From: Petrachloros mirabilis ULC683
GTDB lineage: Bacteria; Cyanobacteriota; Cyanobacteriia; Thermosynechococcales; Thermosynechococcaceae
Direction of reading: 5' to 3'
Assembly (NCBI RefSeq): GCF_009939295.1
Contig: NZ_WVIC01000003.1
Span: forward strand, 62,001 to 126,000
Length of the DNA: 64,000 nucleotides
Shown here: piece by piece, positions 13,931 to 41,050 of the stretch
How the letters are laid out: the number at the start of each line of letters is the position of its first letter
Position numbering within the stretch: position 1 is the stretch's first letter
Notes under the pieces: model-generated
What the model was told of the DNA's origin: nothing
What the model saw: only the letters and a program-made list of their open reading frames with translations
Databases searched by the model: none
Program-made: the position numbers and the translations under genes

Positions 13931-14328
13931 ATGCTACGTCGATTTGAGCGAGTTTTACAGCCTGATCAACTCTTACGAAATTGGGAGCGCACAACCGCAC
14001 CGTCTCTGGGAAAAGAGCTGGAAGTGAGTGAACGAACCGGGCGCTATGACTTAGATTTTTTACGCGATCGCATGGGTGCACCGATTGCTTGCTCTCGTCA
14101 ACGGGGATACACCAACAGGAACGGCGTTGGCACCCCGACATTACCGAACATGGGGATCGATCGCTGACCTTGACGCTGCCAGTGGGGAGACTCAATGACC
14201 TCAACCGCTAGGTTTGGGGATATGGGCAAGGTGCTAAGGTCTTGGCTCCACCTGAGTGGGTGGCGATGGCACGGGATGAGTTGGCGGGAATGCATCAGTA
14301 CTATTGCGATGAAGGGCAGCAGCAATGA
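13931..14328 (+). pseudogene. WYL-domain transcriptional regulator, internally deleted
   Basis: The N-terminus (MLRRFERVLQPDQLLRNWER, then LGKELEVSERTGRYDLDFLRDR) is the HTH of WYL-type regulators, which control several CRISPR-Cas loci. After GAPIACSRQRGY the sequence jumps, near 14115, into another frame that reads the far C-terminal WYL region (ERRWHPD, SLTLTLPVGRLNDL, then after a stop at 14208-14210 VWGYGQGAKVLAPPEWVAM). The middle of the protein, normally about 150 residues, is missing. Its final TGA overlaps the cas3 start as ATGA, showing it was the first gene of the cas operon. I infer loss of function. Confidence 0.8.
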
Positions 14329-17018
14329 ATCACCCCAGATTTTGGGCCAAAACAGGTCAGGGCAATCTGAGAGAAGATGGTCAGCCGCAGTATCATCCGG
14401 TGATTTGTCACCTCGCAGATACAGCCGCAGTGGCGATGGAGATGGTCAGGACGTACCTCAGCCCCATTGCCCGCAAGCATCTAGCAGAAGGGCTAGGATT
14501 ACCCGATAACGAATCCCTGGTGCGATTCTGCGGGTTTATGGCCGGGAGCCATGACCTGGGCAAGGTAAGTGCAGCATTTCAGTTCCAGGTCAGTAACGTT
14601 GGGCGAGCCCTAGTTGGAAAATCCCTTTATGACCTGTGGCATAGCTATCCAACAACAGGCCAGAAAACTCCCCATGGCACGGTGACAGCGGCGACCTTAC
14701 CAGAATTTCTCAAGGAATTGGGTCTTAACAGGAGTCTGGCAAGAAAATTAGCAGCGATTGTAGGCGGGCACCACGGTTTTTTCCCGGGTTCAGCAGATTT
14801 GGAAGCCTTATCCAGTGACGATGTAGGGCGGGGTAGCTGGGCTCAGTTTCGGCGGGATATTTATGAGCAATTAAGGGATTTTGTCGGTCTTGTGGCAGTC
14901 GATTTACCCAGTCAGTGCGACAACGCCGCCGCCATGATTTTGGCGGGATTAACCACCGTATCTGACTGGATCGCCTCAAATCCAGAGGAGAAGTCAGGTT
15001 TTCCCTATGCCAATGACGAACCCTTTGCAACTTATCAGACAGGGCTAGCCGAGAAGGCGAAGCAAGCCCTCAAAGCCCAGGGATGGAGTCACCTCGAAAC
15101 AGGAAAACCCCTATCGTTTACTAAACTGTTCCCCTTGATCACCATTGTTCGTCCCCTTCAGGATGCCGCGATTCAGCTTACGGATGACCTGACCCCCCCG
15201 TGTTTGGTGATGGTGGAAGCCTCGATGGGGGAGGGCAAAACGGAAGCGGCGCTGTACCTAGCCGATCATCTGCAACATCAGTCAGCCGCAGGTGGCTTTT
15301 ACATTGGCTTACCGACCCAGGCCACTAGTAACGCCATGTTCAAGCGGGTGCAGGAATTTTTGCAAAAGCGCTATGACGACAAGGTGGTGAATCTCACCCT
15401 CAGCCACGGAGCCGCCGCACTGAAGGGGGAGTACCTAGATACGGTCTGCCGATTGGATCAGGTGTATGACCACGAGGGGCGCGGCGTGTTTGCCAGTGAA
15501 TGGCACACCGCGCGGAAGCGTACCTTACTGAGTCCCTTCGGCGTAGGCACGCTGGATCAGGGCTTGATGGGGGTGGTGCGATCGCGCCATCAATTCGTCC
15601 GCCTCTTTGGCTTAGCGGGGCGCACCATCATCCTGGACGAAATCCACGCCTATGACCTCTACACCAGCACCCTTCTAGAACGCTTTTTGGAATGGGCAGC
15701 GGTGTTGGGTTCCCCGGTGATTGCCCTCTCGGCCACCTTGCCCGCCAGCACCCGCCAGCGCTTATTGACCGCCTACGCCACCGGGTGTAACCAACCCGTC
15801 CCGCCTTTACCAGAGGCTCCCTACCCTCGCATCACGGCCTTTGCCAACGGGACAGCCGTAGCGCAGTCCTTTGCCGCCTCAGAGCATGTGTGCCGGGAGT
15901 TGGGCATTCACTGGGTCAAGGATGAAGAGTGGCCAGCGGATCTATCCCAGGAACTCAGCGATCGCGGCGGCTGCGTGGCCGTCATCTGCTCCACGGTGAA
16001 CCGTGCCCAGGAGGTATACCAGCAGTTGCAAGATTACTTCCCGCCAGAGGATCTGGGGCTGTTCCATGGGCGGTTTCTGTTCAAAGACCGGGAGACGATT
16101 GAGGCCGATTGTTTGCGGAAATTTGGTAAGGGGGATGCCCATCGCCCCCAGCGCTTTGTCTTGGTCGCCACCCAGGTGATTGAGCAAAGTCTGGATGTAG
16201 ACTTTGACCTGATGATTAGCGACCTAGCCCCCATTGACCTGTTGCTCCAGCGCTCCGGGCGACTCCATCGCCACAAGCGGGACAATCGCCCCGCTGGCTT
16301 GAACACGCCCCAACTGTGGATCGTGGCACCAAGCTTTACCACTGACGGTAAAGCTGATTTTGGTGTCAGTAAGTACATCTATGAACGCCATATTCTTTTG
16401 CGAAGTTGGCTAGCTCTAAGGTGTCGGCATCACATTCAACTTCCAGATGAAACCGATGAACTCATAGGAGCGGTATATGACCCAAATATGGCAGTTCCGG
16501 AAAACATCGAGCCTATTCACGCTCAAGATTGGCAAACTTCACGCGATGAAGAGTTAACTCCTGAAGAACAGAAGAAACTTGCAAAAGCTAATGAAATTAA
16601 GCTGCCTCCACCTCATGGGGAAGTGAAGCCTTGTGATTTCACACGAAAAGGTGAAGAGGATGACGAAGGAACTATTGCTGCCGCTACCCGCCTCGGTGAA
16701 CCCTCTGTCGCCACCATCTTTTTGCAACGCACCGATACCGGACTGGTGTTTCCGGGCACCCAAGAACAGGTGGATCTCAACACCCGTCCCGACCTACCCC
16801 TGATTCGCAAACTCCTCGCCCACAGCACCCGCCTCTCTAAACCTCCTCTCGTCAAAGCTTTGTTAGCCCAGGACAACCCCCCCACTTGGACATCGGCACT
16901 ACTGCGAAACTGCCGCTATGTAGAGGTCAATGCTCAGAGAGTGGCGGTGGTTGGGGACTGGCGGCTGACCCTCGATCCTCTTCGGGGAGTGCTGATTGAG
17001 AAGGAGGAAGCACCTTAG
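14325..17018 (+). CDS. cas3: CRISPR-associated helicase-nuclease Cas3 (type I-E)
   Basis: Cas3 is recruited by Cascade to nick and shred target DNA. It is 897 residues with HD nuclease first: H29, H76-D77 (GSHDLGK) and GGHHGFF near 148. The superfamily 2 helicase follows: Walker A ASMGEGKTEAAL near 300, DEIH in ILDEIHAYDLYTS, SATLPAS, and motif VI QRSGRLHRH preceded by VIEQSLDVDFDLMISD. All key residues appear intact. The region at about 16380-16680 has lower similarity and a more A-rich base composition than its surroundings. The gene starts at the overlap with the WYL remnant and is 107 bases ahead of cse1. Confidence 0.95.
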   Translation: MNHPRFWAKTGQGNLREDGQPQYHPVICHLADTAAVAMEMVRTYLSPIARKHLAEGLGLPDNESLVRFCGFMAGSHDLGKVSAAFQFQVSNVGRALVGKSLYDLWHSYPTTGQKTPHGTVTAATLPEFLKELGLNRSLARKLAAIVGGHHGFFPGSADLEALSSDDVGRGSWAQFRRDIYEQLRDFVGLVAVDLPSQCDNAAAMILAGLTTVSDWIASNPEEKSGFPYANDEPFATYQTGLAEKAKQALKAQGWSHLETGKPLSFTKLFPLITIVRPLQDAAIQLTDDLTPPCLVMVEASMGEGKTEAALYLADHLQHQSAAGGFYIGLPTQATSNAMFKRVQEFLQKRYDDKVVNLTLSHGAAALKGEYLDTVCRLDQVYDHEGRGVFASEWHTARKRTLLSPFGVGTLDQGLMGVVRSRHQFVRLFGLAGRTIILDEIHAYDLYTSTLLERFLEWAAVLGSPVIALSATLPASTRQRLLTAYATGCNQPVPPLPEAPYPRITAFANGTAVAQSFAASEHVCRELGIHWVKDEEWPADLSQELSDRGGCVAVICSTVNRAQEVYQQLQDYFPPEDLGLFHGRFLFKDRETIEADCLRKFGKGDAHRPQRFVLVATQVIEQSLDVDFDLMISDLAPIDLLLQRSGRLHRHKRDNRPAGLNTPQLWIVAPSFTTDGKADFGVSKYIYERHILLRSWLALRCRHHIQLPDETDELIGAVYDPNMAVPENIEPIHAQDWQTSRDEELTPEEQKKLAKANEIKLPPPHGEVKPCDFTRKGEEDDEGTIAAATRLGEPSVATIFLQRTDTGLVFPGTQEQVDLNTRPDLPLIRKLLAHSTRLSKPPLVKALLAQDNPPTWTSALLRNCRYVEVNAQRVAVVGDWRLTLDPLRGVLIEKEEAP

Positions 17019-17125: not shown

Positions 17126-18691
17126 ATGAATGAAACACCGTCCTCTTTTAACCTAATCGATCGCCCCTGGATTCCGGTGATGACGCCCGATTTCCAAATC
17201 CGGGAGGTTTCCCTCGTTGAACTCTTTCAAACCTGGGAAACCCTGTGGGAAATCCAGGCCGATAACCCACCCACTACTCTGGCGATCTATCGCCTGCTGC
17301 TAGCGATTCTCCACCGCGCCCATCAAGGGTCACGGAATGAAGACCACTGGGAAGAGATTTTTGAGGACAACGGTCAGAGGGCGATCGCCTATCTCAACCA
17401 ATGGCGCGATCGCTTTGACCTACTCCACCCCGACCATCCCTTCATGCAAGACCCCATCTTGCCCCTAGACAAAGCCGTCCCTATCTACGCCCTCCACACC
17501 ATGAGCACCTCCCAGGTGTTCTCCCATGAGCACGAATGGAGCGGCTACAGCATTTCTCTACCCCAAGCCGCTCGCTTGCTGGTGCGACTTCAGGGGGTGG
17601 ATATCACCAGCCTAAGAGCCTTCTACGTGGGGCAATCCAGCGGCAACCGCTCGGCAGTCAATACCCCCACCATCAATGCCGCCAATGTGCTCGTGCGGGG
17701 CAGCACCCTGAAGCAAACCCTGCTGTTCAACCTGATGCGCTATGACCCGGCCTCGGAGGTGCCCAGTGTGGTCACGGGAGAAGATCTGCCCGCTTGGGAG
17801 ACGGGCTATGGCGGCAAACCTAAGAAGACGACTCCCCAGGGCTATATCAGCTACCTCAGCTTTCCCTGGCGACGGTTGCGGCTGTTTCCCGAAAACGGTG
17901 AAGTCAGCCAGTTGGCAATCACGATGGGGAATTCTCTACCGGATCAGGTGTCGCCCCAACAGTGGGAATGTGGAGTCGCCTATCGGGAGGACAAGCCCGT
18001 GCGCCTGTCCTTGAGGAAGCAACTTTGGCGGGATGCCGATAGCTTTTTGCTGACGGCAGAGAAGCAACATCGCCCCCGCATTGTGGATTGGCTTGCCAAT
18101 TTGAAATCAGAAGACTTGATTGATGATGTCGTGACTTTTCAAATCTCTGGTCTTAGTGCGGATAAGGCTAAGCCTTTGGGGTGGAGTTGGGAGCAGTTTT
18201 CGGCACCCATTCGGTATGTGACTGATGCGGATTTGGCGACGGTGCTGAAGGGTGCGATCTCGATCGCCGAAGAACACCAACAGATCTTCCGATCCTTCCG
18301 GGGTAGCCCCTACTTCGCCCTGGCAGAAGTCCTCAAGTATGGGGAGGCTGGCAGCTTGGCCAGTGCCCTGGATGGGGAATCCCGTTATTGGGTAGAGCTT
18401 GATCGCAAATTTCCTGAACTGCTTCATGCTCTACCCCGAGACAGCCAAACCGGAGCCGATGGCATCACCCGCTATGGGTTTAAGGAATTGCCCGCTTGGA
18501 CTCAGACGGTTCAAACCGCTGCCCGTCAAGCTTTCACCGAGTCCATTGCATCCATTCGCAACTACCAGGCCAGAGCCGCTGCCCTGCGCACCTTGGAGTG
18601 GAAACTCGCAGATTTGCGGGCCAGCCCAGAGGAGAAGGAAGCCAAAAAAGCCAAAGCTGCTGCCAAGAAAAAAGAAAAAGTTGCCAAATAG
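17126..18691 (+). CDS. casA: Cascade large subunit Cse1/CasA (type I-E)
   Basis: The large subunit reads the PAM and recruits Cas3. It has 521 residues, usual for Cse1. The start FNLIDRPWIPVMTPDFQIREVSLVEL is the standard family opening. Further family signs are ALHTMSTSQVFSHEHEWSGYS and the SGNRSAVNTPTINAANVLVRG loop. The last 20 residues are a Lys/Ala-rich tail (EKEAKKAKAAAKKKEKVAK) not typical of the family core. cse2 follows after 11 bases, so the two are co-transcribed. Confidence 0.93.
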   Translation: MNETPSSFNLIDRPWIPVMTPDFQIREVSLVELFQTWETLWEIQADNPPTTLAIYRLLLAILHRAHQGSRNEDHWEEIFEDNGQRAIAYLNQWRDRFDLLHPDHPFMQDPILPLDKAVPIYALHTMSTSQVFSHEHEWSGYSISLPQAARLLVRLQGVDITSLRAFYVGQSSGNRSAVNTPTINAANVLVRGSTLKQTLLFNLMRYDPASEVPSVVTGEDLPAWETGYGGKPKKTTPQGYISYLSFPWRRLRLFPENGEVSQLAITMGNSLPDQVSPQQWECGVAYREDKPVRLSLRKQLWRDADSFLLTAEKQHRPRIVDWLANLKSEDLIDDVVTFQISGLSADKAKPLGWSWEQFSAPIRYVTDADLATVLKGAISIAEEHQQIFRSFRGSPYFALAEVLKYGEAGSLASALDGESRYWVELDRKFPELLHALPRDSQTGADGITRYGFKELPAWTQTVQTAARQAFTESIASIRNYQARAAALRTLEWKLADLRASPEEKEAKKAKAAAKKKEKVAK

Positions 18692-18702: not shown

Positions 18703-19257
18703 ATGACCACAACCCAAACCCCACCCCGTAATCGACTAGAGCGAGAAACAAAATTCCTACAGGCGATTCGCGATCGCATCAAAAATGATACCGGTGCCAA
18801 AGCCACCTTCAAACGGGCACTCTCTGGTGAACACCACCATTTACGCAAAGTTTACCGCTTTACACTGCCCTATTTGGAAGGTATCCACGAGCGGCAACAG
18901 GATATCTGGATTTTTGTGGCTTGCCTCTCGATTTACCATGACCAAGACTCTGAGCCAGCCCCCCGCAGTTTTGCCAAAAGCTGCCTGGACTTACACAACA
19001 GCAGCGAGTCTAAAGGCCCAGAACGACGATTTAGAACCTTGCTAGATACCGATCTTGTTGATATCCAATCTCCGATTACGGCTTTGGTGCGACAGATCAA
19101 AAGTAAAAAAGACAAGAAAATTCCTGTCTATTATCCCCAACTCATAGTCGATCTCTGTTTCTGGGATCATCCCGATCAATTTGTCCAAGACCACTGGGCT
19201 AAAACCTTCTGGCGAGCAACGCTCCCTTCAAGCAAGCTGGACGAGGCGGAACCATGA
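18703..19257 (+). CDS. casB: Cascade small subunit Cse2/CasB
   Basis: The small helical subunit forms the dimer that stabilises the R-loop in Cascade. It is 184 residues, all-helical, with GAKATFKRALSGEHHHLRKV near residue 30 and FVACLSIYHDQ, as in the family. KKIPVYYPQLIVDLCFW and VQDHWAKTFW near the end match the C-terminal helices. It overlaps the following DUF2283 gene by four bases (ATGA), which ties the inserted small genes to the cas transcript. Confidence 0.92.
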   Translation: MTTTQTPPRNRLERETKFLQAIRDRIKNDTGAKATFKRALSGEHHHLRKVYRFTLPYLEGIHERQQDIWIFVACLSIYHDQDSEPAPRSFAKSCLDLHNSSESKGPERRFRTLLDTDLVDIQSPITALVRQIKSKKDKKIPVYYPQLIVDLCFWDHPDQFVQDHWAKTFWRATLPSSKLDEAEP

Positions 19258-19463
19258 AAATCATCTATGACCCAGAGGTAGACGTGCTGAGAATCTTATT
19301 TCAAGACACGCCTATTAGCGAAAGCGACGAGGATGGGTTCGGCATTATTTTCGATTTTGATGATCAGGGCAATGTCGTTGGCTTAGAGGTTCTGGATGCA
19401 TCTCAGCGCATCGACGATCCCCAACCAGTTAGCTACACGATTGCAAAACCCACACTTCGTTAA
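19254..19463 (+). CDS. DUF2283 family protein (orphan antitoxin-like)
   Basis: The 69-residue protein starts MKIIYDPEVDVLRILFQDTP and continues with GFGIIFDFDDQGNVVGLEVL, the DUF2283 pattern. Members often stand beside DUF4258 genes as predicted toxin-antitoxin pairs; no DUF4258 gene is visible here. The start overlaps the cse2 stop, so it is translated with Cascade. It is the first of four non-cas genes lying between cse2 and cas7. The antitoxin role is inference from the family. Confidence 0.8.
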   Translation: MKIIYDPEVDVLRILFQDTPISESDEDGFGIIFDFDDQGNVVGLEVLDASQRIDDPQPVSYTIAKPTLR

Positions 19464-19488
19464 TCAGTCAAATTCAGGAGGAAACACC

Positions 19489-19698
19489 ATGCAATCCCTT
19501 TCCAAACGAGAGCAAGACATAATCGAAAAAATACGACATCTCCAACCTCACCAGGTTTGGGAAGTAGAGGACTTTATTGATTTTTTAAGTCAACGTTCTC
19601 GAAATGAGCCGACTAGGGAAGAGTTTATCCAGCTATCAGAAGCCGCTTTTGCTAGGGTTTGGGACAATTCTGAGGATTCTGCCTATGACAACCTATGA
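19489..19698 (+). CDS. DUF2281-like antitoxin
   Basis: The protein is 69 residues from ATG 19489, preceded by a strong ribosome-binding site AGGAGG at 19476-19481. KIRHLQPHQVWEVEDFIDFL is the short helical DNA-binding part typical of DUF2281-type antitoxins; the rest (TREEFIQLSEAAFARVWDNSEDSAYDNL) would wrap the toxin. The gene overlaps the MazF-type toxin by 14 bases, a normal toxin-antitoxin layout with antitoxin first. Confidence 0.8.
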   Translation: MQSLSKREQDIIEKIRHLQPHQVWEVEDFIDFLSQRSRNEPTREEFIQLSEAAFARVWDNSEDSAYDNL

Positions 19699-20026
19699 CT
19701 TTGCAGATGTGTTGTTAGTGCCCTTCCCATTCACTGATCAATCAACAACCAAAAAACGACCAACTGTTGTGATTAGCTCTGGCAGCTACAACACCATGCG
19801 TCCTGACCTGATTCTGATTGCAGTAACTAGTCAAATCACTTCACCTTTGCTCTTTGGAGAACTAGAAATTACAAACTGGCAGAATGCAGGTTTGTTAAAA
19901 GTTTCGGTGATCAAGCCAGTTTTAACCACGATTGCAAAGGAGTTGATTATCCGAAAACTCGGTAGGCTTCAGGTATCTGACCGTGAGAGATTAGAACGTC
20001 TTCTAAAGTCTATTCTGTGCCAGTAA
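19685..20026 (+). CDS. MazF/PemK-family mRNA interferase toxin
   Basis: The toxin is about 113 residues from ATG 19685. DVLLVPFPFTDQSTTKKRPT is the family opening, with the substrate-binding PFPFTD loop and the KRP motif; VVISSGSYN and LIAVTSQITSP follow, and KPVLTTIAKELIIRKLGRL is the conserved second half. All expected family residues look intact, so it should be an active RNase held in check by the upstream antitoxin. It lies inside the Cascade operon between cse2 and cas7, in the same direction as the cas genes. Confidence 0.88.
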   Translation: MTTYDFADVLLVPFPFTDQSTTKKRPTVVISSGSYNTMRPDLILIAVTSQITSPLLFGELEITNWQNAGLLKVSVIKPVLTTIAKELIIRKLGRLQVSDRERLERLLKSILCQ

Positions 20027-20068
20027 AACTGACACCTCGCTAATCAGTAAAATCCAGGAGAAACAACC

Positions 20069-20419
20069 ATGCATCAACTCTCTGTCGTTATCGAAAAAGA
20101 TGAATTTGGCTACTACGCCTACTGCTCTGCCCTGGAAGGATGCCAGACCCAAGGTGATTCGATGGAAGAGATTCAGGCCAACATCAAAGAGGCCATTGAT
20201 CTCTATTTATCCACACTGTCTGAGGATGAAAAGAAAGCTATTGCCCTCACCCTAAATTCCTCTTCCAAGAAGGGCTACGGTGTACACACATCTCTAGTTC
20301 TCCGTGTTCCACGCTGCATTAGCCCCCCCAACCCCCCAAAATTGGGGGGAGAAATCCGAAAGTTAGAACTAGTTCCCCCCAGAATTGGGGGGCTAGGGGG
20401 GCGAGTGCAAAGATTTTGA
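20069..20419 (+). CDS. HicB-family antitoxin, C-terminus replaced by repeat DNA
   Basis: Residues 1-58 (LSVVIEKDEFGYYAYCSALE, then GCQTQGDSMEEIQANIKEAI) are a good HicB partial RNase-H-like fold, and a ribosome-binding site (CAGGAG) precedes ATG 20069. From base 20243 the frame runs into a palindromic repeat, so the last 58 residues (SKKGYGVHTS and on) are repeat-derived. The DNA-binding C-terminus usual for HicB is not there. No hicA is adjacent. It is probably an orphan, damaged antitoxin. Confidence 0.7.
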   Translation: MHQLSVVIEKDEFGYYAYCSALEGCQTQGDSMEEIQANIKEAIDLYLSTLSEDEKKAIALTLNSSSKKGYGVHTSLVLRVPRCISPPNPPKLGGEIRKLELVPPRIGGLGGRVQRF

Positions 20420-20522: not shown

Positions 20523-20639
20523 TATGAATAAAGGTGAATACACCCACTAGCCCCAGCATAGCCACTCTCACTTTTGAGTGATCTTTCATTTCACCCAAAC
20601 TACAAATCCAAACTTTGTTTTTTACTGAGGAAATTTCCC

Positions 20640-21779
20640 ATGCAACTTGAACTTCATTTGATTCAAAGCTTTCCCCCCGCCAACCTAAACCGGGACGAAA
20701 ACGGAATGCCCAAATCTACGGTCTTCGGTGGTCGTCCCCGTGCCCGCATCTCTAGCCAGTGCCAAAAACGAGCCGTGCGACTGTATTATCAGCAATATTC
20801 AGACGTGAGTGCCGACCAGTTTGCCAATCGTTCTCGCTCTTGGTTGTCTGAGCTGAAAACCCTACTAACCCAAGCAGAAATTCCTGAAGAAAGGGCTGAG
20901 TCAGCAGCTAAGTTGGCTTTGAAATTCTTGGGTGCGGAAGAAGATCCGAAAAAGCCAGGTAAAACCAAAACGATTCTATTTTTAGGTCAGACGGAACTGG
21001 CTGCGATCGCAAATATCCTCGTCAACAATTGGGCAGATATTGAACCCAGCCTGACTGGAGACAAACACGAACTGCCCAAGGAGATTACCAAGGCCATCCA
21101 AAAAGCCTTGGTCGAAACCGGCAAACCCGGTGATGTCGCTCTCTTTGGCCGGATGATGGCCTCCTTGCCCACGGTGAATGTGGATGCTGCCGTACAAATG
21201 GCCCACGCCATCAGCGTCAACACCCTGCAACAGGAATTCGACTTCTTCACCGCCGTAGATGACTTAGGCGGTGACGACGAAACCGGAGCCGACCACATGG
21301 GCGAAACCGGCTACAACAGCTCCACCTACTACCGCTTCGCCACCCTCGATACCGAACAACTCGCCCAAAATCTGGGCAGCACCGAGCACCTCGATGCGGT
21401 GATCAAAGCCTTTGCCGATGCCTTTGTGCAAGCCATTCCCAGCGGTCACCAAAACGGCTTTGCCGCCCATACCCGCCCCGCCGCCGTCATGGCCGTGGTG
21501 CGCCAGGGGCAACCCGTTTCCCTAGTAGATGCCTTTGAGGATCCCATCAGTCCTAAACATGGAGCCAGTTTGTTAGCAAACGCGGTGGGGGCGATCGATG
21601 CCCACTGGGCAGACTTGATGGCCATGTATGGGGAGTCAGGGGTGCAATACAAGGGTATTGTCACCCGCAGTAAATTCACAGACCAATTGGATGCCCTCAA
21701 GCCAGCGAAAAAGGATTCTGTCGAGGTGCTCTTGAGTGAAGCTCTCGGCGCTGCCCTCAACGGCCAGGGAGGGAAGTAG
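20640..21779 (+). CDS. casC: Cascade backbone subunit Cas7e (Cse4/CasC)
   Basis: Six copies of this subunit coat the crRNA in type I-E Cascade. The start MQLELHLIQSFPPANLNRDE followed by GMPKSTVFGGRPRARISSQC is the diagnostic Cas7e opening. ATG 20640 follows GAGGAAA at a good spacing and gives 379 residues. NVDAAVQMAHAISVN and GETGYNSSTYYRFATLD are further family motifs. It is separated from the upstream cas genes by four non-cas genes and a repeat, and followed after one base by cas5. Confidence 0.95.
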   Translation: MQLELHLIQSFPPANLNRDENGMPKSTVFGGRPRARISSQCQKRAVRLYYQQYSDVSADQFANRSRSWLSELKTLLTQAEIPEERAESAAKLALKFLGAEEDPKKPGKTKTILFLGQTELAAIANILVNNWADIEPSLTGDKHELPKEITKAIQKALVETGKPGDVALFGRMMASLPTVNVDAAVQMAHAISVNTLQQEFDFFTAVDDLGGDDETGADHMGETGYNSSTYYRFATLDTEQLAQNLGSTEHLDAVIKAFADAFVQAIPSGHQNGFAAHTRPAAVMAVVRQGQPVSLVDAFEDPISPKHGASLLANAVGAIDAHWADLMAMYGESGVQYKGIVTRSKFTDQLDALKPAKKDSVEVLLSEALGAALNGQGGK

Positions 21780-21780
21780 A

Positions 21781-22431
21781 ATGCTGACCCTATTAATGCG
21801 GCTGCGGGCACCGATGATGAGTTGGGGCGATCATAGCCAGTTTGGTCATCGCGATAGCCGCCGCGAACCCACCAAATCTGCCGTAATTGGCCTCCTCTGT
21901 GCCGCCCTCGGTCGCCCCCGCTGGGAGCCTGTGCATGACCTCGCCGCCCTGAAAATGGGAGTACGGGTCAACAAAGAAGGGGTGCTGCAACGGGATTATC
22001 ACACCGTGCAAGACAACATGCGGGACGACGGGGGCAAGGTCAATACCACCCTTAGCGATCGCTACTACGTGGCTGACGCGGACTATTTGGTGGGGCTTGA
22101 GGGATCACCGGAGCTGCTAAGCCAGCTAGATGCAGCGCTTCAAAACCCCCATTGGCAACTGTATTTAGGCCGCAAAAGCTTTATCCCCAGTCATCCCATC
22201 CGGGTGGGAGTGGTGAATTTGCCCCTACTATCGGCTTTACAGCAGGCTGCCTACGAACATCGAGGTCGCAAGAATCGCCCCAGCCAGTTGCGGTTTGTGC
22301 TGGAAACCACGGACAGCACTGATACCCGCCAAGATGTGCCCCTAGACTGGCAGCGTCGCCAGTTTGGTCGCCGCACCGTCGCCACTGAATATCATCCTTT
22401 ACCGGAGGTTGTATGTACCTTTCCCAACTAA
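21781..22431 (+). CDS. casD: Cascade subunit Cas5e (CasD)
   Basis: Cas5e caps the 5' handle of the crRNA. The product is 216 residues. LLMRLRAPMMSWGDHSQFGH and REPTKSAVIGLLCAALG are the classic Cas5e start, including the Gly-rich region. The LGRKSFIPSHPIRVGV segment also fits. It begins one base after the cas7 stop and overlaps cas6 by 19 bases, as is common in type I-E operons. Confidence 0.94.
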   Translation: MLTLLMRLRAPMMSWGDHSQFGHRDSRREPTKSAVIGLLCAALGRPRWEPVHDLAALKMGVRVNKEGVLQRDYHTVQDNMRDDGGKVNTTLSDRYYVADADYLVGLEGSPELLSQLDAALQNPHWQLYLGRKSFIPSHPIRVGVVNLPLLSALQQAAYEHRGRKNRPSQLRFVLETTDSTDTRQDVPLDWQRRQFGRRTVATEYHPLPEVVCTFPN

Positions 22432-23033
22432 TCTTGAATGACCGGCAACCCCAGGTTCATCGAGATCTGGGCAATGCCCACGCCTTCCACCAAAGGCTGA
22501 TGCATGGCTTTCCCGATCAGCCAACGGAAACCCCACGAGCTGATTGGGCGATTCTGTACCGGCGAGAACCAGATAGCTATGCAGTGCTGGTGCAGTCGGC
22601 AATTGCACCCAACTGGTCTCATTTACCCAACCACTATGTGCAGTGTGAGCCTCAGGTGAAGCCCTTTGAGCTAACCGCCAACACCCTCTCTGTGGGACAA
22701 CAATTACAGTTTCGCCTCAAGGCCAATCCTAGCAAGCGGGACAAAGCAACCCGCAAAACCATCGGCTTCTACCGACGGGAAGACCAACTGGCCTGGTTAG
22801 CCCGTAAGAGAAAGCGCCATGGGTTTGAGCTACTAACCGTAGATGCCATACCAGCCCCAAATGTTTTTGGCACCAAGGCCAAGGGCAAGGCTCCAATTCG
22901 CATTCATACGGTGCTGTTTCAGGGCGTGTTGCAAGTCACCGACGCTGCGGCTTTGGTGGCAGCGGTGCAGCAGGGCATTGGCCGAGGACGTTCCTATGGC
23001 TGTGGTCTCTTGTCTTTAGCCCGCCTAGATTAG
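22413..23033 (+). CDS. casE: crRNA-processing endoribonuclease Cas6e (CasE)
   Basis: Cas6e cuts the precursor transcript at the base of the repeat hairpin. The protein is 206 residues with the ferredoxin-like start MYLSQLILNDRQPQVHRDLG and HAFHQRLMHGF, which carries the catalytic-region His. The C-terminal glycine-rich loop GIGRGRSYGCGLLSLARL is intact. Its substrate repeat hairpin, CCCCACGCATGTGGGG, is present in the array. The stop overlaps the end of the convergent hicA remnant. Confidence 0.94.
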   Translation: MYLSQLILNDRQPQVHRDLGNAHAFHQRLMHGFPDQPTETPRADWAILYRREPDSYAVLVQSAIAPNWSHLPNHYVQCEPQVKPFELTANTLSVGQQLQFRLKANPSKRDKATRKTIGFYRREDQLAWLARKRKRHGFELLTVDAIPAPNVFGTKAKGKAPIRIHTVLFQGVLQVTDAAALVAAVQQGIGRGRSYGCGLLSLARLD

Positions 23034-23242: not shown

Positions 23243-23452
23243 CTAAGTTACCAGCTCCACATTCTGAGGTAGAGGACGCCCAGCCTCCAGGTACTCTTCT
23301 CGGATGATCTCGAAGACGTTGGCCAACGCTTGCTGGGCCTCCTCCCAGGTTGCTCCCCAAGCGTGGCAGCCCTCAATCGCGGGTACATAGGCCACAAATG
23401 TTCTGTTGTCGTCGGGCTGCAAAACAACGGTGTAGTCATGGAGCGATCGCAT
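23243..23452 (-). CDS. hicB: HicB-family antitoxin
   Basis: The 69-residue protein (LHDYTVVLQPDDNRTFVAYV, then PAIEGCHAWGATWEEAQQAL) has the compact HicB fold without a separate DNA-binding domain. It is read just before the broken hicA, two bases apart. Because the toxin is defunct, the antitoxin is now an orphan. It lies in reverse orientation between cas6e and cas1, and its promoter must be in the 71 bases before cas1. Confidence 0.85.
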   Translation of the reverse strand: MRSLHDYTVVLQPDDNRTFVAYVPAIEGCHAWGATWEEAQQALANVFEIIREEYLEAGRPLPQNVELVT

Positions 23453-23523: not shown

Positions 23524-24438
23524 ATGACAAATCTGCGTACCTTACCTAAAGTCCGCGACAGCATTAGCTTTTTGTATTTTGAACACTGTCGGATTGAGCA
23601 AGAAGCCAAAGCGATCGCCATTTTCCAAAAGCAAGAAAAATATGTTGTTCCCTGTGCCAGCCTCTCAACTTTGATGCTTGGTCCTGGCACCCGCATTACC
23701 CATGCAGCCATTAAAACCCTGGCAGATAATGCCTGTGAAGTCCAGTGGGTGGGGGAGGACAGTTTTCGATTTTACTCAGCAGGCCGCCAGAGTGCGGCCA
23801 GTGTGCAGCGACTCCACCATCAAGCCAAAGTCTGGGCCGATCCGCAGCAGCGATTAGCAGTCGTGCGGCGAATGTATGAGTTTCGCTTTCCAGAGCCGTT
23901 ACCTCCTGATCTGACACTGCAACAAATCCGGGGTCGAGAGGGGGTGCGAGTGCGGACGGCCTATGCCCGTATGAGCAAGGCAACGGGTGTGCCCTGGCAT
24001 GGCCGCAGCTACAAACAAGACGATTGGTACAATGCCGACCCCATCAACCGGGCGTTGTCTTCTGCTAATAGCTATCTGTATGCAGTGTGTCAGGCGGCGC
24101 TGGTGTCGGTGGGGTATTCACCGGCCTTGGGCTTTGTCCACACGGGCAAGCCTCTCTCATTTATCTATGACGTGGCAGACTTGTACAAGGCAGAAACGAC
24201 CGTTCCAGCTTCATTTGAGGCTGTGGCCGAAGCAGAAGAAAATGCTAAACCTCAGGTACGCCAGAAGTGTCGAGAAAAGTTTACCCAGTATCGCTTGATG
24301 CGCCGCATTATCCAGGATGTTGATTCGGTCTTGGGCTATGCCGAGGGTGATGACTTGGAAGTGCCTCCGGTTAGCTATCTTTGGGATGATCAGGTGGCCT
24401 GGGTCGAAGGTGGGCAAGACTGGGTGGAGGAGTCGTAG
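23524..24438 (+). CDS. cas1: CRISPR adaptation integrase Cas1 (type I-E)
   Basis: With Cas2 it inserts new spacers at the leader end. It is 304 residues. The start RTLPKVRDSISFLYFEHCRI is typical of Cas1e, QIRGREGVRVRTAYARM carries the first acidic ligand, and GFVHTGKPLSFIYDVADLYK carries the catalytic His and Asp. All metal ligands appear present. It is three bases ahead of cas2. Confidence 0.95.
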   Translation: MTNLRTLPKVRDSISFLYFEHCRIEQEAKAIAIFQKQEKYVVPCASLSTLMLGPGTRITHAAIKTLADNACEVQWVGEDSFRFYSAGRQSAASVQRLHHQAKVWADPQQRLAVVRRMYEFRFPEPLPPDLTLQQIRGREGVRVRTAYARMSKATGVPWHGRSYKQDDWYNADPINRALSSANSYLYAVCQAALVSVGYSPALGFVHTGKPLSFIYDVADLYKAETTVPASFEAVAEAEENAKPQVRQKCREKFTQYRLMRRIIQDVDSVLGYAEGDDLEVPPVSYLWDDQVAWVEGGQDWVEES

Positions 24439-24440
24439 AA

Positions 24441-24710
24441 ATGGTGGTCTTTATTCTGGAAAATGTTTCTCCAAGTTTGCGAGGGGAAGTGAGCCGCTGG
24501 TTGTTTGAAGTGAAGGCAGGTGTGTTTACGGGGAAGCTCTCTGCTCTGGTTCGAGATGAGTTGTGGGCGTATGTGGCCAAGAAACTCGGCAATGGATCTG
24601 CCGTGTTGATCTATTCGACGAACAATGAGCAAGGCTTCAGCGCCCGAATGCTCGGAAATTCGTCGAGGACATTGGTAGACATAGAAGGCGTTCTTCTTGT
24701 CAAAACCTAA
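24441..24710 (+). CDS. cas2: CRISPR adaptation protein Cas2 (type I-E)
   Basis: The 89-residue protein MVVFILENVSPSLRGEVSRW shows the Cas2e pattern, with EVKAGVFTGKLSALVRDELW next. It bridges two Cas1 dimers in the adaptation complex. Only 22 bases separate its stop from the first repeat, so the array leader must overlap the end of this gene. Confidence 0.95.
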   Translation: MVVFILENVSPSLRGEVSRWLFEVKAGVFTGKLSALVRDELWAYVAKKLGNGSAVLIYSTNNEQGFSARMLGNSSRTLVDIEGVLLVKT

Positions 24711-26730
24711 AAAAATCAATAATCTGGGAAGCGTCGTCCCCACGCATGTGGGGGTGAACCGCTTTCATGCTCAAGGTGCGGGACACTGTTCGAGCGTCGT
24801 CCCCACGCATGTGGGGGTGAACCGATTAACAGCATCATTTATAAGGCACTCATCAGCGTCGTCCCCACGCATGTGGGGGTGAACCGGTATACGCCTATGC
24901 TGTTGGGTCTGACCCATACGTCGTCCCCACGCATGTGGGGGTGAACCGTGTCGTTGGTTCAGTAGAAGGAACCAATCAACGTCGTCCCCACGCATGTGGG
25001 GGTGAACCAGGCGCATGGGAAGACTTGTAAAACAGTCTCTAAGTCGTCCCCACGCATGTGGGGGTGAACCTCCTACGAGCGCAGCGAGTCCATCGCCGCG
25101 TGCGTCGTCCCCACGCATGTGGGGGTGAACCCCCCGCCCCCGCATCCCAGTTGAAAGTGCTTCCGTCGTCCCCACGCATGTGGGGGTGAACCGGGCTACT
25201 CAGCGCAACTTGGACAATCGGGATCAGTCGTCCCCACGCATGTGGGGGTGAACCATAGCTAGAGCTTATCAATCATTAAGTATAAGCGTCGTCCCCACGC
25301 ATGTGGGGGTGAACCGGGGGAAAGATCCCCTATACACACACAGAAAAAGTCGTCCCCACGCATGTGGGGGTGAACCGCTAGGAGGATTAAAGGTGATTCA
25401 GGCCATCTTGTCGTCCCCACGCATGTGGGGGTGAACCGACGGCTTCCAGTTAGCCACCAGGAGAAACGCAGTCGTCCCCACGCATGTGGGGGTGAACCGC
25501 GCTCGAAGGCGAGTGGGAAGCGCTGAAAGGGGTCGTCCCCACGCATGTGGGGGTGAACCGGTATCCATTTTTCTAATTCCTCGATTGACTACAGTCGTCC
25601 CCACGCATGTGGGGGTGAACCGTTTTTGATATTCACTGGCTGCAAGGTATCCATTGTCGTCCCCACGCATGTGGGGGTGAACCGTACATGCGTACTGCCG
25701 CAACGTGGTGGGTCAGAGTCGTCCCCACGCATGTGGGGGTGAACCGGAGCGCATGGCCGAAAAAGGCATGTTCGATCTGGGTCGTCCCCACGCATGTGGG
25801 GGTGAACCGATTCGTTCGCAATGGCGCAGGTTAAGCTTAGCGTCGTCCCCACGCATGTGGGGGTGAACCGAGAGTCTACCCGTAACGCTATCAATTAGTG
25901 ATCGTCGTCCCCACGCATGTGGGGGTGAACCGCTGAGCAATTGGATCCCCGTGAAAGATTGTTCGTCGTCCCCACGCATGTGGGGGTGAACCGGCCAGAC
26001 TTGGCATGAAGATGAATCAAGTTCGTCGTCCCCACGCATGTGGGGGTGAACCGCAGATGCGATACTTTTTGTACGCGGTTCAAGACGTCGTCCCCACGCA
26101 TGTGGGGGTGAACCGATGTTGTTTCTGCATCCTACGTTTACGGCGGCGTCGTCCCCACGCATGTGGGGGTGAACCGCGAAAATTTGGACTGCGAGTTTAA
26201 GATGCTTGGTCGTCCCCACGCATGTGGGGGTGAACCGTTGCTTTTGAACGGATTACTGCCGCAAAAGATGGTCGTCCCCACGCATGTGGGGGTGAACCGT
26301 CAAGGACAGCGTCCCTGCTTTTGAGCGATTCGTCGTCCCCACGCATGTGGGGGTGAACCGCAACCTGATCACCACAGTCTTTGATAAATTCAGTCGTCCC
26401 CACGCATGTGGGGGTGAACCGAATAGAATCGTCTGAGCAAGAATCAAAACGGCGTCGTCCCCACGCATGTGGGGGTGAACCGGGTTTTGCACCCTCAACA
26501 AAAGCAGCCACTCGGTCGTCCCCACGCATGTGGGGGTGAACCGTAAATTTCAAACCCAAACCAGAATATCTAGAAGTCGTCCCCACGCATGTGGGGGTGA
26601 ACCGACATAGGAGTCAAAGAAATTGTGCTCTAGTACAGTCGTCCCCACGCATGTGGGGGTGAACCGGCCCAGCGGCGCTGGATTCGACTGCTCAAGCGCG
26701 TCGTCCCCACGCATGTGGGGGTGAACCGCA

Positions 26731-26835
26731 TTTGCCGAGGCGTTTGTCGCCTATACTCTGGCTCCCGAGGAGTATAGGCGACTTGATACAGTGGGCTACG
26801 ATCAAATCGACGAGATCATGCAAAACTATGACTAA
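26731..26835 (+). CDS. C-terminal gene fragment inside the giant spacer
   Basis: The frame reads FAEAFVAYTLAPEEYRRLDT then VGYDQIDEIMQNYD and stops at TAA 26833-26835. It has no start of its own, because it begins at the edge of the repeat. The FAEAFxxY motif recalls C-termini of phage head-morphogenesis or minor-head proteins, but the match is by eye and weak. It is probably not expressed as a protein here. Confidence 0.5.
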   Translation, partial: FAEAFVAYTLAPEEYRRLDTVGYDQIDEIMQNYD

Positions 26836-27063
26836 AACCAAGGCTGAAGAGGTTGAGGCCGAAATGAAGGCATTGATCAATTTGCCGCCCACCATGGAAA
26901 ACTGGGATAAGTTGCAAGCCGCGATCGCAGAATTTGGCAAAGAGCGGCCTTTGCTGAAGTTGCTCCCGGAAGCGTTTATCGTAAGCGCTACGCCTGAATT
27001 TTTAGACGAACTTTCAGAATCGCTGAAAGCCAATAGGATCCGGGAAGATGAGTCCATTACAGC
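26828..27063 (+). CDS. N-terminal gene fragment inside the giant spacer
   Basis: ATG 26828 opens 78 codons (MTKTKAEEVEAEMKALINLP, later FGKERPLLKLLPEAFIVSAT) before the next repeat interrupts the frame. The start overlaps the preceding stop by eight bases. Composition is protein-like: acidic, helical. I do not recognise the family. In frame the reading continues into the repeat and stops at 27088, so the tail there is artificial. Confidence 0.5.
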
Positions 27064-27421
27064 GTCGTCCCCACGCATGTGGGGGTGAACCGTAATCAAA
27101 TCAGTTAGCTATTGACTCAATTACTCGTCGTCCCCACGCATGTGGGGGTGAACCGATTGGGGCAATTCAATCTGTTGGGCTAGGTAGGTCGTCCCCACGC
27201 ATGTGGGGGTGAACCGAAGTTTTTTCGATTTGGGAGTTATTTGCTAATCTTCGTCCCCACGCATGTGGGGGTGAACCGGGACGGGGAGCTTTTTGCGTCG
27301 TTACTCGGTTGGTTATCCCCACGCATGTGGGGGTGAACCGTTGCAACCTTGAGGGCTGGTTCCAGCCATACACGTAGGCTGATCTCGCTTAAACCAAACT
27401 TATGGCCTGTTGATTGCTGTG

Positions 27422-38217: not shown

Positions 38218-38424
38218 CTAAAAAACCTGATCTTCTTGACCCACCCACCATTCTCCAAGAGCCATCATGTCCTGGTGGATGTCCTTGAGTTCTGTCAGAT
38301 AAGCCTCTGGTGGCATCTCAGTTCGACGCTCTTGTAGCTTTTTCAGACGCAGTTGCAGCAAAAGCCAGGGCTTTGAAATGCCATCTGTTGCTTCGATATA
38401 CCGAGCAAGTTGCTGACTATCCAT
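38218..38424 (-). CDS. small conserved hypothetical protein
   Basis: The 68-residue helical protein ([20 protein letters not shown], later [16 protein letters not shown]) has a start that overlaps the end of dnaE-N by eight bases, so it is translationally coupled to it. The close coupling downstream of the polymerase gene is notable, but no function is recognised. Confidence 0.65.
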
Positions 38425-41050
38425 AGGGGCTAAGGGTAAGTTCCATAGGGGTGAACGGATCTAGTCTGCTGTCAGTTCCAGTTTTTGCAGCCGGAAGGCG
38501 ATGCAGGTCATGTCCTTCTGCAAAAATCTGCTCAATGGGCAACATCTCACCCTGAGCAGTCATAAACCGATGCTCCGGCGTGGCTCGAATTACAGAGCCA
38601 TCTTCTAGCTCATACTCCATCACCGCTTGGTCACCGCGATGGTGCCACTGGACAATGGGCTGAGTCTGCACATAGCCCTGAGCATCCACAGAAAAGACCT
38701 GACAGTCCAGGTGATGCTTGACTAAAGTGCCAACGGGCACCCAGCCATGTTCAACCGTTAAGACCTCGGTGTCGCTACTAAGACAATACTCGGCAAACAA
38801 CACCATCTGGTCAAATAGTTCCTCGGCCAGTTTTTTCTGCACCCCATTCTGAGCCGCCCCGTCAATGAAGATTTCGCGGTGCTTTTGCATTTCCGACATC
38901 TTTTTTTTGCCCATGGCTCGGCGGAGCAGATCCGCTTGCCCCAGGGAATACCCTGCCATATCCTGGGCAATTTTCATGATTTGCTCCTGGTAGACCATGA
39001 TGCCGTAGGTTTCTTTCAGGATCGGCTCCAGAATGGCATGAGGGTAATCAATACGCTCCCGGCCATGCTTGCGGTTAATAAATTTGGGAATCAATCCTGC
39101 ATCCAGCGGTCCCGGTCGATAGAGCGCCAGAATCGAGGAAATATCTTCAAGATTGGAGGGTTTCAGATCCCGCACCACCTGGCGCATCCCCGAAGATTCA
39201 AGCTGGAATACGCCTTCGAGTTCTCCCTTAGCCAGCAACTCAAAGGCTTTGGGATCATCCATAGCCAATTGATCTACATCCAGATCCAGGTTTTGGTGCT
39301 GGCGAATCAGTTCTGCGGCTTTCTGGATCATGGTCAGGTTTTTGAGACCCAGAAAGTCCATTTTTAGCAAACCCAAGGACTCCAGATCTTCCATGAAATA
39401 CTGGGTAATCACAGAGCCATCGTTATTGCGCTGGAGGGGCACAGTTTGATCTAAGGGCTCAGCCGCAATCACCACCCCAGCCGCGTGAACCCCAAAGGTT
39501 TTGTTTGTACCCTCAATACGAATGGCCATGTCCACCCAGTGACGAACCTTGGGGTCGTTGTCGTATTTTTCCTTAAACTCAGGTGAGGGGGTGTCGTCTG
39601 AAATCATCACCTTCAGTTTGGCGGGCTTGCCCCGTGACACTGGAATCAGCTTTGCCATTTTGTCGGACTCCCCATAGGAGATATCCAGCACCCGCGCCAC
39701 GTCCTTGAGCACCGCCTTGGAGGTCATGCGGTTGAAGGTAATAATTTGGGCGACTCGTTCTTCGCCATATTTGTGGGTGACATATTCAATGATTTTTTCG
39801 CGCTGATCGATGCAGAAGTCGGTGTCAATATCCGGCATTGACTTGCGCTCAGGGTTGAGAAAGCGCTCAAACAGTAGACCATGATGCACGGGGTCAATGT
39901 TGGTAATCCCCAGGGCATAAGCCACCAGGGAACCTGCGGCGGAACCTCGTCCTGGCCCTACGGGAATGCCATGGTCGCGGGCATACTTGATGTAGTCCCA
40001 CACCACCAAGAAATAGGTCGAGTAGCCCATCTGAGCCAGCATTTGTAGTTCGTACTCCAGGCGCTCCTGGTAGGTGGCGTTAATTTCGTTGCGAGTGGCT
40101 ACCCCTAGCCGCGCCTGAAGCCCCTGCCAACTCATCTCAATCATGTAGCTGTCCGGAGTATGACCGGTGGGCACCTCATAGGCTGGGCTTTGGGGGTCTC
40201 GAAAGATGTCGTAGGCTTCAATCTTGGCAGCAACTTCCAGGGTAGTGGCAATGGCTTCCTGAATCACCGTTTCGGGAAGATGATCGCGAAATAGCCGCGC
40301 CATTTCCTCGGCAGATTTGAGATACTCAGTGCCGCTGTAGCGCAAGCGCTTGTCTTCAGTAATCAGCTTGCCGGTTTGGATGCACAAGAGGGCATCGTGG
40401 GCTTCTACGTCGTAGCAGGAAATAAAGTGAGAATCATTGGTAGCAACGACTTGGATGCCGAGTTCTTGGCCAATGCGGACAATTTCTACATTCACGACCC
40501 GGTCTTCTTGAGAGCCGTGATCTTGAATTTCGAGGTAATAATCTTCCCCAAACAAGTCTTGATACCATTGAGTCACTCGTCGTGCCACCTCGGGCTTGCC
40601 CTGCATAATTGCCTGGGGCACTTCCCCGCCCAGGCAAGCACTGGTGACAATTAGCCCTTCATGGTATTGCTCCAGCAAATCTTTATTGATGCAGGGGCGG
40701 GAAAAAATGCCTTTCCCCTGCACGCCCTGAAGGTTGGAAATGGTGGTGAGCTTTACCAAGTTGCGATAACCCTGGGTATTTTTGGCTAGCACCACTTGGT
40801 GGTACCGGGGACGGCGCTCTTGCTTAGTGATGTCGCCGTTGATCACGTACATTTCGTTGCCGATGATCGGCTTGATGTCTTTGCCCCGACAGGCTTTGAG
40901 CAACCCCACCGCACCGTACATGACGCCGTGATCCGTGAGGGCGATCGCAGGCATTCCCAGTTCCACGGCTCGGGTCACCAGATCTGGAAGTTGGCTGGCT
41001 CCATCGAGCAAGCTGTAGTCACTGTGAATATGCAAGCCGACAAAGGACAT
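38417..41050 (-). CDS. dnaE: DNA polymerase III alpha subunit, N-terminal part with split-intein N half
   Basis: The replicative polymerase is encoded in two pieces, as in many cyanobacteria. This one has 877 residues: the PHP domain ([20 protein letters not shown]), the palm with [19 protein letters not shown], and the junction LFAEY at residue 755. From Cys756 ([15 protein letters not shown]) the intein N-terminal half follows, 122 residues. Protein trans-splicing with a second gene, not in this window, restores the enzyme. The catalytic Asp pair (PDIDTD) is intact. Confidence 0.96.
38420..38785 (-). other. DnaE split intein, N-terminal half
   Basis: The intein begins with the nucleophilic Cys at codon 38785-38783, preceded by AEY. 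Block A ([14 protein letters not shown]), the [11 protein letters not shown] stretch and block B ([13 protein letters not shown], with TxxH as ATPEH) are clear. At 122 residues it is about 20 longer than the well-known family members, with an extra tail after LHRLPAA. Confidence 0.9.

Follow-up and report, generated by a model that had tools for sequence, protein, structure and literature searches.

The type I-E CRISPR array of Petrachloros mirabilis ULC683 contains, between two intact repeats, a single spacer of 335 nt that is almost certainly phage DNA. As judged from its alignment, this block is one contiguous piece from a relative of a Mu-like prophage present in the same genome. We regard it as a spacer of unusual size, well bounded and of unsettled origin.

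A giant unit in a complete type I-E locus

The window analysed here, a stretch of 64,000 nucleotides, carries a complete type I-E gene set (cas3-cas8e-cse2-cas7-cas5-cas6e-cas1e-cas2e, identified with NCBIfam models) adjoining an array of repeats that all run in a single direction (Table 1). The 29-nt repeat consensus is GTCGTCCCCACGCATGTGGGGGTGAACCG, and no exact copy of it was found in other species. The cas2e side, to the left, is the leader side, and the imperfect repeats 37 and 38 lie at the far right end. Only 22 bp (24711–24732) separate the cas2e stop from the first repeat. A similarly short gap between cas2e and the first repeat is present on the Acaryochloris plasmid pREC1, and from these two short gaps we infer that the leader in this clade may extend into cas2e. 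Toxin-antitoxin-like genes lie within the cas operon (19396–20419 and 23243–23452 (−)). The cse2-cas7 gap holds a DUF2281-like protein (weak), a PemK/MazF-like toxin and a weak HicB-like ORF, and the cas6e-cas1 gap holds a HicB-like antitoxin. Elsewhere in the window, an N-terminal half of DnaE is encoded at 38417–41050 (−), with polymerase domains found by Pfam; its end looks like what we take to be the N half of the cyanobacterial split DnaE intein.

Table 1. Positions of the cas genes, the array and the features of the giant spacer, in window coordinates
Feature	Position	Strand	Remark
cas3	14325..17018	+	NCBIfam models
cas8e (cse1)	17126..18691	+	TIGR02547
cse2 (cas11e)	18703..19257	+	TIGR02548
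cas7e	20574..21779	+	TIGR01869
cas5e	21736..22431	+	TIGR01868
cas6e	22413..23033	+	TIGR01907
cas1e	23524..24438	+	TIGR03638
cas2e, intact, 89 aa, without fused nuclease	24441..24710	+	TIGR01873
Type I-E array, 38 repeats of 29 nt	24733..27340	+	
Repeat 33, perfect, left border of giant spacer	26700..26728	+	
Giant spacer, 335 nt, almost certainly Mu-like phage DNA	26729..27063	+	
C-terminal end of Mu-type portal gene, 34 codons and stop	26731..26835	+	73% identical to C25 prophage portal
Perfect 13-bp inverted repeat, 11-nt loop (26746–26758 / 26770–26782)	26746..26782	+	lies in portal coding end
Start of small gene after portal gene	26828..27063	+	55% identical to prophage copy, first 55 residues
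AAG, possible PAM right before last 34 nt of block	27027..27029	+	statistically neutral
Repeat 34, perfect, right border of giant spacer	27064..27092	+	

Spacers of 31–34 nt fill 36 of the 37 intervals (31 nt, n = 1; 32 nt, n = 18; 33 nt, n = 14; 34 nt, n = 3) and fit the regular I-E layout, in which repeats of 28–29 nt alternate with spacers of 31–34 nt, the giant being the sole exception. Both repeats bordering it match the consensus perfectly, confirming the sequence-only reading of this DNA, which had described a 335-bp spacer with an intact repeat on each side in an array whose other spacers are of 31–34 bp. Base 29 of the repeat is G in 34 of the 38 units and A, A, T and C in the other four. 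In E. coli type I-E systems the last repeat base derives from the PAM, and the variation seen here is as expected for a prespacer-derived base; in this array, the 29th base seems to be carried along with the spacer, that is, to come from the prespacer. The frequency of C as the last base of the spacer (18 of the 36 ordinary spacers here; 230 of 467 elsewhere in cyanobacterial I-E arrays, with T in only 40) suggests that Cas1-Cas2 prefers this base at the PAM-distal end. Avoidance of AAG is a signature of primed adaptation (PMC6282206); the spacers of this array showed no AAG depletion, and the signature could therefore not be used. No protospacers for the other spacers were found in the phage collection. 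Spacer 1 gave a 20-nt match in IMG/VR, which broke off after 21 nt and yielded no PAM.

The giant spacer is real in the assembly and rare. Among 508 intervals in 15 cyanobacterial I-E arrays, including the array under study, the 335-nt block was the only giant. Intervals of 93–98 nt were also present in the survey; they have the length of two units, which points to an unrecognised degenerate repeat, and one interval of 47 nt is an assembly gap that holds ten N. A further ~150 intervals on finished plasmids of Acaryochloris, Synechococcus and Thermus contained no giant inside an array, the longer distances in this plasmid survey being single stray matches outside arrays or chance matches on the opposite strand. 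In all, ~650 comparable I-E spacers were surveyed, with no other giant.

Phage DNA in the block

The block carries the end of one gene, with the translation FAEAFVAYTLAPEEYRRLDTVGYDQIDEIMQNYD followed by a stop, and the start of a second that overlaps the first through ATGACTAA and stays open to the end of the block; both frames had been pointed out from the sequence alone. On its contig C25, the genome also contains a Mu-like prophage that has genes for MuA transposase, TerL terminase, Portal_Mu, Mu F and tail S morphogenesis, in which the end of the portal gene and the next small gene are colinear with the block and share the same ATGACTAA overlap. The presence of this junction in the host's own Mu-like prophage shows that it did not arise by chance. 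It also bears out the earlier proposal of a junction between two phage-like genes, the first being identified by its end as a Mu-type portal gene and the second as the small gene next to it. DNA identity between block and prophage is 72% over the first 110 nt (E 1e-9), and the protein match has an E value of 5e-10. Homology extends from nt 1 of the block to at least ~26990, and the small-gene alignment continues weakly to the end of the block (REDESIT / RADEPAT). Differences between the two copies are most frequent at third codon positions (17 versus 8 and 6 at the other positions, and 38 versus 25 and 20), indicating that both have been under coding constraint and that the ancestor of the block was a working phage gene pair. 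The C25 portal protein itself (L009:16445-18676) is extended at its C terminus by a long segment that includes an HExxH-like motif (YLHEMGHQIHYM) and resembles a metalloprotease domain; no relatives of this segment were found in IMG/VR.

Colinearity with one prophage stretch indicates that the block came from a single piece of phage DNA. It also excludes ordinary spacers merged through the loss of repeats, a reading that the first analysis had named as one that would overturn its own; the giant unit measures 364 bp, about six units of 61. A fragment of a normal host gene, named there as well, was rejected on the ground that the only homologue of the block in the genome lies in the prophage. 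Capture straight from the resident prophage was rejected because identity is only 72%, and the C25 prophage is a relative of the source, not the source itself. A search for a closer source in GenBank phages, PLSDB plasmids, IMG/VR (four protein-level scans), GTDB contigs and 390 cyanobacterial genomes found none, and a weak match in G229 was not phage. The comparison of the block and its frames with phage and prophage proteins, proposed with the sequence-only reading, thus provided a relative in the C25 prophage and no closer phage match. The block has the two-gene junction of this Mu-like prophage of a cyanobacterium, and is unlike it both in the divergence of its DNA and in being an internal portal/small-gene segment without Mu ends. 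Neither phage ends nor a target-site duplication are present at its borders with the repeats, which does not fit a Mu-like insertion.

Routes by which the block may have entered the array

The alignment to the prophage begins exactly at nt 1 of the block (CATTcGCCGAGGC), where the preceding base is T in the prophage and the repeat's own G in the array. Since homology starts at the first base, the left edge is spacer-exact, within one base of the repeat end. At the right edge homology to the prophage is weak, and the last base of the block is C, as it is in half of the other spacers. A spacer-exact left edge together with intact repeats favours either the adaptation machinery or an existing spacer as the point of entry, and disfavours random insertion.

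We tentatively prefer an account, to which we would give somewhat less than an even chance, in which ~336 bp from a relative of the C25 prophage was taken up by Cas1-Cas2e in the manner of a spacer. Cas1-Cas2e would have integrated an untrimmed prespacer of ~336 bp (the 335 nt and the last base of the repeat), with a long linear piece of phage DNA joined at each of its ends to one end of the repeat on the leader side. This repeat would then have been duplicated as usual, and later acquisitions would have pushed the giant unit to position 33. In favour of direct capture, the adaptation and interference genes are complete. The block resembles ordinary I-E spacers made by an E. coli-type Cas1-Cas2e: it occupies the same slot between the same repeats, comes from a phage, starts on the left where the repeat ends and has C as its last base. 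Of the properties expected of a Cas1-Cas2e-made spacer, it has the two intact repeats and the foreign origin but not the ruler length of ~32–33 nt, since it measures 335 nt where the others here measure 31–34 nt. The I-E Cas1-Cas2 complex measures spacers of ~33 bp, which counts against direct capture, as do the lack of another giant in the survey and the triplet before nt 1 of the block, which is AAT and not AAG in the prophage, itself only a relative of the source. Deep sequencing of I-F adaptation attributed length variants to slipping and inaccurate PAM-distal cutting, not to captures of hundreds of base pairs (PMC5059440). The natural 56-bp spacer in an Aggregatibacter I-F1 array, attributed to ruler failure or locus rearrangement (PMC7296934), is like the block in exceeding the ruler length, but the block is six times longer; a search of the open-access literature turned up no I-E capture of this size. 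We rate very slightly below the account of direct capture the reading that a native Cas1-Cas2 complex of type I-E is able to insert ~336 bp of phage DNA as a single unit, in which case the ruler is not absolute and arrays can hold gene-sized pieces of a phage.

Recombination between spacers and their target is a rather doubtful alternative, though the foremost of them. Two spacers, adjacent or nearly so, would have derived from the same strand of one phage ~300 bp apart, and homologous recombination with the protospacers would have swapped the intervening repeat for phage DNA. Such an event would account for spacer-exact edges without breaking the Cas1-Cas2 ruler, and spacer-target recombination has been documented (Varble et al. 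2019 and Watson et al. 2018, cited in PMC8616872). Under this model a PAM is expected ahead of the final 31–34 nt. An AAG does stand ahead of the final 34 nt, a length used in the array. However, the block contains 11 AAG, which makes one near its end weak evidence with a likelihood ratio that we estimate to be near 1, and for the last 32 or 33 nt, the commoner lengths, the preceding base is C, not G. In addition, no other spacer in the array matches the Mu-like prophage, and the homology arms would be short, at only 32–34 bp. As in the recombination of Varble et al. (2019), phage DNA with spacer-exact edges would be placed inside the array, but the known cases, as cited in PMC8616872, are CRISPR loci carried off by phages. 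An internal phage segment retained between repeats was not described in the literature searched. We slightly prefer direct capture to recombination because it needs one event and no further spacer from this type of phage is present in the array.

The identical sequence would result from a recombination event or from an assembly chimera. For a chimera, which we consider improbable, array and phage reads would have shared two spacer-length stretches, leading the assembler from array to phage and back to array. The sequence comes from a single draft assembly in 79 contigs, where at least one scaffold gap is present (100 N, within the prophage), and another of the surveyed arrays has an N-filled gap inside a spacer. 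On the other hand, the rest of this array is clean, with its regular spacers and near-uniform repeats. A chimera would also require that the sample contained a phage matching the array exactly over two spacer-length stretches and that the true path was lost. The only related phage sequence in the assembly is the prophage, which at 72% identity is far too diverged for its reads to be mixed. Illegitimate insertion of a phage fragment into an existing spacer while a broken array was being repaired is very improbable: the weak prophage homology at the right edge would allow it, but the left edge departs from the repeat end by no more than a base, where random insertion would leave old spacer sequence, and both flanking repeats are intact. 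Of the three origins raised in the sequence-only reading (unusual capture, insertion and recombination scar), random insertion is thus disfavoured by the left edge, and capture is only slightly preferred to recombination.

The predicted guide and its implications

Transcription and cutting by Cas6e would give a crRNA with a 335-nt guide. Type I-F1 Cascade assembles and interferes with spacers of up to 176 nt (PMC7296934), indicating that guide length alone is not prohibitive, and by analogy an extra-long guide from the giant spacer would be possible in principle. The perfect inverted repeat in the block corresponds to guide positions 18–54; it was matched in 0 of 2000 shuffles and is not expected by chance. 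With its flanks the stable hairpin folds at about −26 kcal/mol in RNA. The prophage copy is without this 13-bp inverted repeat, which may have arisen by template switching or be an RNA element of the phage. Because the hairpin sits in the stretch that must pair, a normal full R-loop is unlikely, and the predicted guide is probably poor, with little or no interference expected. Within the first 32 nt, block and prophage differ by four mismatches, including one in the seed, at position 5. These mismatches and the AAT triplet make it unlikely that the giant spacer would direct efficient cutting of the resident prophage.

Should the unit prove real in the cell, either Cas1-Cas2e can exceed its length ruler tenfold, a point that would matter for the trimming and measuring of prespacers, or recombination of spacers back with phages can deposit phage DNA in the array. 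If real, the giant unit would also be a natural test of the guide length acceptable to I-E Cascade.
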